A DNA stretch of 64,000 bases from Bacteroidota bacterium (GTDB lineage: Bacteria > Bacteroidota > Bacteroidia > 2-12-FULL-35-15), in contig JAQZBR010000001.1 of assembly GCA_029237775.1 (NCBI GenBank), positions 186,001-250,000 on the forward strand, written 5' to 3'. The notes beneath the pieces are model-generated. The model made no database searches and was not told the DNA's origin. It saw only the letters and a list, made by a program, of their open reading frames with translations. The translations under genes were made by a program, and so were the position numbers. Shown here piece after piece: positions 18,055 to 20,127 of the stretch; positions within the stretch are counted from its first letter, which is position 1; each line of letters begins with the position of its first letter.

Positions 18055-18259
18055 GATTGCATTTTAGAGGTGTAAAAATAGGGAAATAATTTGGGTTTAA
18101 CCTCGGAGTATACGGAGAACCCCTAAGCTGCACATAACCCTTTATAACAATAGTCCGAAGGTCATAAGCGTATTTGAGCTCACGCAATTACCTCAATTGA
18201 TTGTTGAAAAGTATTGAAAACACCTATATTCTAATTTATTATAAATCCGCAAATCGGAA

Positions 18260-18267
18260 TAAATTTG
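18260..18267 (+). promoter_or_regulatory. -7 element of the candidate ncRNA upstream of the RT
   Basis: TAAATTTG followed by C matches the Bacteroidota TAnnTTTG consensus exactly. Transcription would start near 18273-18275, just before the first stem-loop of the structured segment. No convincing -33 motif was found at the expected spacing. Confidence 0.55.
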
Positions 18268-18590
18268 CGATGCTTTCAATGAAACATGAAAACTCATGTT
18301 TGTGTTGGGAGGGTTGAAGTTTAACGTATGGTCTCCCCATAAGGTTACCATTAAATCTATCCACGTTGATAGATTTAACGCTAACCTTTCCACCTCACGT
18401 GGTAGGTCAGCCTGTACAATGAATCTCAGTAGCATCAGTATCATTTCTGCTGTATTTATATAGTTTTAAGGCGTTAGATTGCGATTTAGTCACGTAAGTC
18501 GAAAGTTGTGGGTGACTCCCGATTGTTTGCGCCAAAAATCCTTCCCTGAAATGGGCGATACGCGCTAATCGTTGGATTTTTGGCTTTGCA
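18268..18590 (+). ncRNA. Candidate DRT-associated structured ncRNA upstream of the RT gene
   Basis: The 560-bp gap between pheT and the RT gene contains about 320 bp of dense secondary structure on the RT strand. Stem 1 is aaacatga/tcatgttt (18282-18289/18294-18301, loop aaac). Stem 2 is a long two-part hairpin: aaggtta (18341-18347) with taacctt (18382-18388), enclosing ttaaatctatc (18351-18361) with gatagatttaa (18368-18378). Stem 3 is agtcac (18488-18493) with gtgact (18512-18517). Stem 4 is gccaaaaatcc (18531-18541) with ggatttttggc (18574-18584). All arms are exact complements. DRT2 systems encode a template ncRNA directly upstream of the RT, so this is the expected place for one. The ends are estimates: a TAnnTTTG box precedes the 5' end, and stem 4 marks the 3' side. 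Confidence 0.6.
18290..18463 (+). other. Stop-free frame inside the candidate ncRNA (possible neo-type ORF segment)
   Basis: One plus-strand frame has no stop from 18290 to 18460 (57 codons), ending at TAG 18461-18463. ATG codons are at 18296 and 18419; the product would begin MFVLGGLKFNVWSPHKVTI. On the minus strand another frame is open from 18465 to 18196 (90 codons) across the same bases. The segment has no recognisable protein family and spans the long hairpin, so it does not look like an ordinary gene. In DRT2 systems the ncRNA template, once copied into a head-to-tail concatemer, gives a long ORF called neo. A stop-free template is what that mechanism needs. This is a hypothesis; repeat boundaries are unknown. 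Confidence 0.4.
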
Positions 18591-18613
18591 GAATATTCTT
18601 ATCTAAATTATAT

Positions 18614-20038
18614 ATGTTGGATGCGGCTCTTTTTACTAAGTGGATTGAAAAAGAAGAAAGAGCCGCACTCAGCAAAAAAAGGCGGTATGCACATTTTGAC
18701 CCTAAAATTGACTTCCTAAAAAATGTTCATCCTTTAAAAAATTTCCTTGCTGATCCCAAAAAGGTTGCCGCACACGCTTTCTATCCATTCATCAAGTCCG
18801 ATATTATAGTTCCTAGATATAAAAAAACAGGGCAACTAAATGAAACGGGCAAACCGATCCGTAAGCTTGACAAGAAAATACGTCCAATCGCTTATGCGGC
18901 ACATTATGACGCTTTTATTTATTCCTGGTACTCAACTTTGCTTTCAGAAAACTATGAGAAGAAAACCAAGGAACTCGGAATCTATGAGTGTGTTTTAGCT
19001 TATCTTGAAAAAGATAAAAGTAACATTGAATTTGCGCATGAAGTATTTGAATATATAAAAACAAAAGGGGAATGCGTTGCTTTAGCTTTTGATATCACAA
19101 GTTTTTTCGATGGGCTGGACCACCTGCAACTTAAAAAAATGTGGGCTTTAATATTAAATGCGCCACGTCTTCCTGAAGATCATTTCAATGTGTATCGTGC
19201 TATTACATCATACACCACTGTAGAAAAACAAACAGTTGAAGCCGAGTTCGGCATCGCTATTAAGAGAGAAAAAGGACGTAAAATAGTCCGATTATGTTCA
19301 CCTCAGGATTTTCGAGAAAAAGTACGAGGTGGAGGAATGATTGAGAAAAACCCCTTCATAAACAAAGTTAAAGGAAGTACAAGATATGGCAATGTTTGTG
19401 GAATTCCTCAGGGGTCACCAATTAGCGCGTGCCTTTCCAACATCTATATGCTCGAATTTGATGTTTATATCAATGAATTGATTATCCGGCTAGGTGGTAT
19501 GTACCGTAGATATTGTGATGATATAGTTGTAGTGGTTAAGATCGAAGACGCAGACCAAGTTAAGGACACGATACTCAAAACAATTGTCGATTATCATTTA
19601 GAAATTAATGATACCAAAACCGAAGTCACGTATTTTAAAAAATATGGCGAACGACTAAAAGGACTTGATAGTAACTCCTCTACTGGTAGAGAAAGAAACA
19701 TGCAGTATCTCGGCTTTGAGTTTAATGGAGAAAATGCATACATCCGGGCTTCAAGTCTTTCAAGATACCATAGAAGAATGACGGCCAGAATTCGTGAAAA
19801 CTTAAAAGCCGCTTACGGACAAAATTCAATTGGGTCAAAGATATTCAGAAAGAAACTGTATAATAGGTATACAGAAAAAGGTGAGCGGAATTTTATTTCA
19901 TATGCAGAAAGGGCTCATGAACACATGGAGTCAAAGACGATATATGACCAAGTTAAAAACAGCTTGAAAAAGGTAAATAAAAAGTTAGCTCAGAAAAACA
20001 CCACCTTCGCTACGAAACGGCCAAAGAATATGCAATAA
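18614..20038 (+). CDS. Defense-associated reverse transcriptase, DRT2 (UG2)-like
   Basis: A 474-residue reverse transcriptase, taking the ATG at 18614. An upstream in-frame TTG at 18572 falls just before the 3' arm of stem 4 and is unlikely. Catalytic residues are visible: D160 in FDITSFFD (palm motif A) and Y300-C301-D302-D303 (motif C, YCDD). GIPQGSPIS (263-271) is the motif B region. An N-terminal IRPIAYAAHYDAFIYSWY block and SNIEFAHEVFEYI are consistent with 'unknown group' antiviral RTs, and YCDD plus single-gene organisation point to DRT2. There is no maturase, endonuclease or integrase domain and no msr/msd-type retron layout. It sits alone between pheT and tex, preceded by a structured segment. 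The class call is from motif recognition, not a search. Confidence 0.8.
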   Translation: MLDAALFTKWIEKEERAALSKKRRYAHFDPKIDFLKNVHPLKNFLADPKKVAAHAFYPFIKSDIIVPRYKKTGQLNETGKPIRKLDKKIRPIAYAAHYDAFIYSWYSTLLSENYEKKTKELGIYECVLAYLEKDKSNIEFAHEVFEYIKTKGECVALAFDITSFFDGLDHLQLKKMWALILNAPRLPEDHFNVYRAITSYTTVEKQTVEAEFGIAIKREKGRKIVRLCSPQDFREKVRGGGMIEKNPFINKVKGSTRYGNVCGIPQGSPISACLSNIYMLEFDVYINELIIRLGGMYRRYCDDIVVVVKIEDADQVKDTILKTIVDYHLEINDTKTEVTYFKKYGERLKGLDSNSSTGRERNMQYLGFEFNGENAYIRASSLSRYHRRMTARIRENLKAAYGQNSIGSKIFRKKLYNRYTEKGERNFISYAERAHEHMESKTIYDQVKNSLKKVNKKLAQKNTTFATKRPKNMQ

Positions 20039-20127
20039 CATTACTTTGCAAGAATAAAGTACTCCTTACACTACAAACGACTTACAACACAAATATTACA
20101 GGTATCGATTATGCGATTTAGTTGACT

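Follow-up and report, generated by a model that had tools for sequence, protein, structure and literature searches.

A probable structured RNA upstream of a Bacteroidota DRT2 reverse transcriptase and its candidate antisense Neo-type frame

In a 64,000-nt stretch of DNA from a Bacteroidota bacterium (contig JAQZBR010000001.1, positions 186,001 to 250,000; hereafter the window, in whose numbering positions are given), we analysed a segment of about 320 bp, 18268-18590, located directly upstream of a reverse transcriptase (RT) gene. In DRT2 systems, the RT repeatedly copies a template lying between two short repeats, and the resulting array encodes the protein Neo (PMC12039810, PMC11100668). Comparison with related loci (given below by our working numbers, L001 and so on) led us to conclude with high confidence that the segment is the non-coding RNA (ncRNA) of a DRT2 system; the system probably copies a template of ~144 nt in tandem into a Neo-type gene. 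As a whole, the locus is best explained, and we consider this likely, as a single-gene DRT2 anti-phage system with an ncRNA at ~18273-18590 (+ strand), tandem template copying and a Neo-type product. Transcription and the ends of the ncRNA, the jump sites, the promoter, production of Neo and the role in defence are all elements that we infer from the sequence.

The reverse transcriptase and the conserved stems of its upstream RNA

The RT scored 467.7 bits against NF041746, the NCBIfam DRT2 equivalog, with a cut-off of 390, and PADLOC assigned it to Drt2 at 9e-149, the match to Drt9 being far lower (1e-13). The solved DRT2 chains (PDB 9c0i) matched it at E 4e-78, and the YxDD catalytic motif was whole in its translation, as YCDD. 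In a tree of 48 DRT2-like proteins it belonged to a Bacteroidota clade with L001, L002, L003, L036 and L007/L053/L054, which joined the proteobacterial (canonical) Drt2 loci and was separate from a large, mainly Flavobacteriaceae clade. The RT score, together with an anatomy that fits the published DRT2 ncRNA, supports the original prediction, made from the letters of the DNA, that the segment is the ncRNA of a DRT2 system.

The four exact stems that had been proposed on the RT strand were all found on the + strand of the segment, both by computation and by direct reading (Table 1). The RNA fold of the segment reached -101.7 kcal/mol (z = -4.48), and none of 100 shuffles was as low. The reverse strand folded equally well (z = -4.94), so that folding alone cannot assign the RNA strand; the + strand was assigned on the basis of the RT gene downstream, the order of tower and TTTGC, and five one-sided base changes that remain paired (G.U) only on this strand. 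With a start near 18273, the ncRNA would be ~318 nt long. Its fold z and conservation are those of a structured ncRNA located directly upstream of the RT, for which ~280 nt had been expected.

When all 36 genomes of this genus were searched, a single relative was found, G696/L001, which was also the sole close one in the collections searched; we therefore used positional and pair-count tests in place of a covariance model for the full ncRNA. The window and L001 were 91% identical in the ncRNA segment, 95% in the 3' scaffold and 92% in the template, compared with 79% in the RT open reading frame (83% for the RT protein) and 57% in the 150 nt upstream. In their joint fold, 98 pairs were unchanged, five were changed on one side, four on both sides and none was broken, the last count being biased since the fold was fitted to both sequences. 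Three of the four compensatory pairs were located in the 5' hairpin, which also contained G.U-compatible changes, and the fourth in the last stem. Each of the five one-sided changes kept G.U or A-U on the + strand and would produce A.C mismatches on the minus strand, which indicates that the + strand is the RNA.

In MAFFT alignments of divergent ncRNAs the arms of the tower were misplaced. Stems of distant loci were therefore located locus by locus: in each, we sought the best stem close to the start of the RT, and the stems were then compared. In the distant DRT2 loci the best stem had 11-16 bp and ended 12-29 nt before the RT start. A tower stem as good was found in 0 of 200 shuffles for the window, L001, L003, L036, L082, L002, L045, L087 and L088 and in 1 of 200 for L049; by the same per-locus test it was not significant in L047 and L048. 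The tower was directly followed by TTTGC in the window, L001, L003, L036, L082, L002 and L049, by TTTTGC in L045 and by TTTCAC in Escherichia coli. An 8-bp 5' hairpin with a loop of 4-5 nt preceded the template in the window, L001, L002, L003, L045, L087 and L088, and no clear hairpin of this kind was found in L082. Across 7-10 DRT2 loci (Bacteroidota and proteobacterial), two-sided changes were seen in 9/9 outer tower pairs and 8/8 handle pairs. A locus's own arms paired at 100%, a figure biased by picking the best stem per locus (less bias attaches to the common position of the stems and to the shuffle test), whereas arms swapped between loci paired on average at 70% (tower) and 46% (handle).

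Stems that are not conserved, or do not covary in relatives, had been named as grounds for abandoning the prediction; we looked for both and saw neither, and compensatory changes were found in handle and tower. The use of the stems as structural evidence held in part. The nested stem is located within the template and showed no covariation, and is thus not evidence of structural selection; comparative support is limited to the first and last of the four stems.

A structured 5' leader controlling RT expression, attenuator or riboswitch-like and without a template, would also be compatible with a segment located directly upstream of the RT, 24 nt from its start codon. However, Rfam gave no relevant match and no leader family for the segment at gathering or relaxed thresholds, a T-run is absent after the tower, and the handle, tower and TTTGC end match those of proteobacterial DRT2 loci, among them those of E. 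coli with an RT close to the solved one of Klebsiella pneumoniae (KpnDRT2). We regard such a leader as very improbable. A weak Rfam match of the segment to U4 was judged to be due to chance.

The template repeat, the antisense frame and the repeat junction

The distance of 144 nt between the two AGTTT copies corresponds to 48 codons, and joined antisense copies give one stop-free frame in both the window and L001. In linear DNA, the antisense frame is open from 18193 to 18444 on the minus strand; the earlier statement that the segment holds no conventional gene overlooks this frame, which would be the coding part of the system. Nine codons of the Neo frame are changed in L001, two silently and most others conservatively. 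In shuffled window sequence, a repeat with spacing in a multiple of 3, a stop-free frame and an early ATG occurred together in 0.4% of cases (P 0.004). When the repeat and open-frame test was anchored on the handle, P was 0.010 for the window, 0.010 for L002, 0.014 for L003, 0.011 for L036 and 0.029 for L082, and Fisher combination of the five values (by hand) gave about 5e-6. As judged from their sequences, four further Bacteroidota DRT2 loci share the design with other repeats and lengths: AGTTAT with a unit of 138 nt in L002, AGTT (129 nt) or GTTTA (114 nt) in L003, ATATTGTT (114 nt) in L036 and TTAAG (126 nt) in L082. The open frames of the window and of these loci have the helical, moderately hydrophobic composition of E. 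coli Neo, from which the two remaining window frames differ. The 43-residue window frame (linear part) was predicted to be helical with a pLDDT (predicted local distance difference test) of 89, which is weak evidence for a peptide so short. A Pfam match to Neo was obtained once; it was weak and under its cut-off.

The KpnDRT2 promoter is assembled across the repeat junction (PMC12039810), and the Bacteroidota promoter consensus consists of TAnnTTTG at -7 and TTTG near -33 (PMC7366714). Our junction method was checked on L088 and L045 as positive controls, both of which gave exact TTGACA-N17-TATAAT. The junction of L003 formed TTGACT-N17-TATATT (P 0.012), while those of L002 and L082 formed TTG-N20-TAACTTTG and TTG-N19-TAACTTTG (P 0.008 and 0.004, respectively), which fit the Bacteroidota consensus and are not present in linear DNA. 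In all, a junction promoter was scored as present in L002, L003, L082, L045, L048, L087 and L088. We also observed that in L049 (a Nitratidesulfovibrio plasmid, Desulfovibrio-type) a perfect TTGACA-N17-TATAAT implies an ACTG jump of 145 nt, not divisible by 3; with a 144-nt TTGA jump, the spacing becomes N16 (by hand).

Several results weigh against a Neo-encoding template with the boundaries proposed here. At the window template, no pair of ACA motifs combined an open frame with suitable spacing; the AGTTT pair occurs instead. The window junction contained no recognisable sigma-70 or Bacteroidota promoter (best score 8.5, P 0.38); in the window and L001, TATAAA stands at the unit start without a partner (P about 0.4). 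Either the system uses a promoter of another class, or our placement of the jump is wrong. The test for a conserved Neo frame in the window and L001 pointed in the favourable direction and was not significant (P 0.20). The search for the pseudoknot GCGATT/AATCGT, in which a G.U pair of the window is A-U in L001, was not significant for the window alone (P 0.38), reaching P 0.009 for eight loci together; the same search in the E. coli loci L087/L088 yielded a pairing compatible with the published one. Finally, in E. coli L087, a longer k-mer with other spacing ranked above the ACA pair that matches the published motif. The choice of k-mer may therefore misplace the jump, and the bounds of the 144-nt unit could be off by several codons. 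Other jump pairs near the template ends of the window (GTT at 150 or 159, TTTA at 135, GTAT at 126 and TAT at 132) keep a common Neo core, which starts with the ATG at 18444 and extends to about 18330.

The missing junction promoter and the non-significant coding test could also be explained if the DRT2 ncRNA is copied repetitively and its product acts as DNA, similarly to the poly-dA of DRT9, the antisense frame being due to chance or a relic; moreover, 4-6% of shuffled templates are open in some frame. Nevertheless, the combination of repeat, open frame and early ATG occurs in five independent Bacteroidota loci, three of these form a promoter, and only across the junction, and the open frames of the five share a composition absent from the other frames of the window. 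We therefore consider a product acting as DNA unlikely, and a Neo-type gene remains our preferred explanation.

Further features, the ncRNA promoter box and the genomic setting

Table 1. Positions of the features described at the window DRT2 locus
Feature	Position	Strand	Details
Candidate Bacteroidota -7 box of the ncRNA, TAAATTTG	18260..18267	+	Transcript start then near 18273
5' handle hairpin	18275..18309	+	8-bp core AAACATGA/TCATGTTT at 18282-18289/18294-18301
AGTTT, inferred template-jump motif 1	18318..18322	+	Longest repeat pair with 3-divisible spacing and open concatemer frame; same in L001
Inferred template, 144 nt	18318..18461	+	144 in both window and L001
Predicted neo repeat unit, INTAEMILMLLRFIVQADLPREVERLALNLSTWIDLMVTLWGDHTLNY	18318..18461	-	Start codon ATG 18444-18442
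Nested 7 + ~11 bp stem	18341-18388	+	24-nt arms, 88% complementary
AGTTT, inferred template-jump motif 2	18462..18466	+	Partner of motif 1; same in L001
3' side of candidate basal stem closing the template	18472..18479	+	5' side 18319-18326; direct reading, joint fold
Candidate pseudoknot strand GCGATT	18481..18486	+	Partner AATCGT 18567-18572, tower loop
6-bp stem AGTCAC/GTGACT	18488-18493/18512-18517	+	
Possible buttress hairpin GGG-TGACT-CCC	18510..18520	+	Direct reading; overlaps 6-bp stem
Tower hairpin, 11 bp, loop 32 nt	18531..18584	+	GCCAAAAATCC/GGATTTTTGGC at 18531-18541/18574-18584
TTTGCA, conserved ncRNA 3' end motif	18585..18590	+	Directly 3' of tower
Drt2 reverse transcriptase, 474 aa, YCDD active site	18614..20038	+	NCBIfam, PADLOC and PDB matches

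At the position matching the possible buttress hairpin, L003 has a similar GGGG-N6-TCCC. The candidate basal stem is invariant between the window and L001. The promoter box noticed before the first stem is present, and it is retained in L001 at an equal distance; TAnnTTTG is not enriched across the window (56 observed, 62 expected), and hence the box is weak as evidence alone. Upstream of the box, a block at 18195-18227 (TTGTTGAAAAGTATTGAAAAC..CTATA) is common to the window and L001 despite their unshared surroundings, and a sigma-70-like TTGAAA-N17-TATTAT begins at 18214; the block may act as a regulatory element or represent an earlier promoter.

The DRT2 locus is an insertion of ~2 kb (18055-20127) between genes that we take, from reading their translations, to be pheT and tex. 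In a congener without it, the pheT-tex gap is 52 nt (L093:2083-2133), and the system of L001 sits among different genes. The insertion itself would suit the view that the stems are a mobile-element end or a recombination site and not RNA. However, the stems lie inside the insertion and adjoin the RT in every relative regardless of the genomic site, as in L001, and the changes within them preserve RNA pairs with G.U on the + strand, so that an element end is, in our view, even more improbable than a leader. Viral contigs and phage records, searched for relatives, gave one distant locus (L080) and three weak matches.

In the subclade of L007, L053, L054 and L083, the tower is more alike in sequence, with ACATTAG...CTAATGTCCCA in L007, L053 and L083; the candidate 5' jump motif there is GTTAAAGTTA or similar, which on the copied strand reads TAACTTTAAC, a sequence similar to a -7 box. 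The mainly Flavobacteriaceae loci L055-L079, L006 and L008-L014 form their own clade of Drt2-like RTs of ~500 residues, under the NCBIfam cut-off. Upstream of the RT in L059, L065 and L067-L070 of this clade, conserved 5' and 3' blocks enclose a variable central part in which an antisense frame is open (in L065 and L067 it includes PLEMIVT...). The tower hairpin is absent, and the ncRNA architecture is probably a different one.

Proposed mechanism and comparison with known systems

We propose that the RT would bind the 5' handle and the 3' scaffold (the tower and probably the pseudoknot) and copy the ~144-nt template bounded by the two copies of AGTTT. At the 5' copy, the end of the nascent complementary DNA (cDNA), AAACT, would re-anneal to the 3' copy, and the template would be recopied into a tandem array. 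Since 144 equals 3 x 48 and the antisense strand has one stop-free frame, such an array would be a near-endless gene for a helical Neo-type repeat protein, which would arrest the infected cell.

More tentatively, we suggest that in the Bacteroidota branch of DRT2, lineage-specific jump repeats of 4-8 nt may replace ACA and neo promoters may fit the host sigma factor (TTG ... TAnnTTTG formed across the junction only); the window genus would have changed to a further promoter type, not recognised here, and to a Neo repeat of 48 residues. If this is true, each lineage has re-tuned the signals of the hidden gene independently of RT and scaffold. According to the DRT2 preprint (PMC11100668), ncRNAs are predictable in divergent DRT2 clades, Neo is hard to annotate there, and alternative mechanisms were suggested. 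Our analysis indicates that a divergent Bacteroidota clade has a readable Neo design when the ACA rule is dropped, with host-type junction promoters in two relatives. It thereby becomes possible to test whether reverse transcription can also generate genes outside the sigma-70 setting, and the analysis provides a search rule for hidden genes in other DRT loci: a short repeat, a 3-divisible unit and an antisense open frame between handle and tower.

We classify the locus as a DRT2 variant, since ACA motifs and the junction promoter, two features of KpnDRT2-type ncRNAs, were sought in the window and not found. This agrees with the expectation that a Bacteroidota form may differ from the Klebsiella model, the differences being the lack of ACA motifs, the 144-nt unit and the lack of a sigma-70 promoter at the junction. 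Like KpnDRT2 (DRT2/UG2; PDB 9c0i), the window has an RT of the orthologous family, an ncRNA directly upstream with 5' handle, template and 3' tower, a 3-divisible template, a helical Neo frame without stops on the copied strand and an ATG soon after the junction. Its jump motif is AGTTT and not ACA, and its unit exceeds the published ones of 111, 117, 120 and 129 nt (PMC12039810, PMC11100668, PMC12596737), both of which speak against full identity, as does the lack of a recognisable promoter at its own junction. In addition, TTTGC follows its tower, compared with TTTCAC in KpnDRT2, its junction is without TTGACA/TATAAT, and its host belongs to Bacteroidota. The Photobacterium (L045) and Escherichia (L087, L088) loci resemble the window in the 8-bp handle, a tower equally far from the RT and the antisense open frame, but differ in having TTGACA-N17-TATAAT or TGGACA-N17-TATAAT across the junction. 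On the Photobacterium plasmid (L045:2200-2448), the perfect junction promoter arises only with an AGAT jump of 111 nt, which indicates that ACA is not universal even in Gammaproteobacteria. DRT9 (UG28; PMC12483538) shares with the window a class 2 UG RT and a structured template RNA that lies upstream and yields repetitive cDNA, whereas its product is poly-dA templated from a U tract (PMC12483538).
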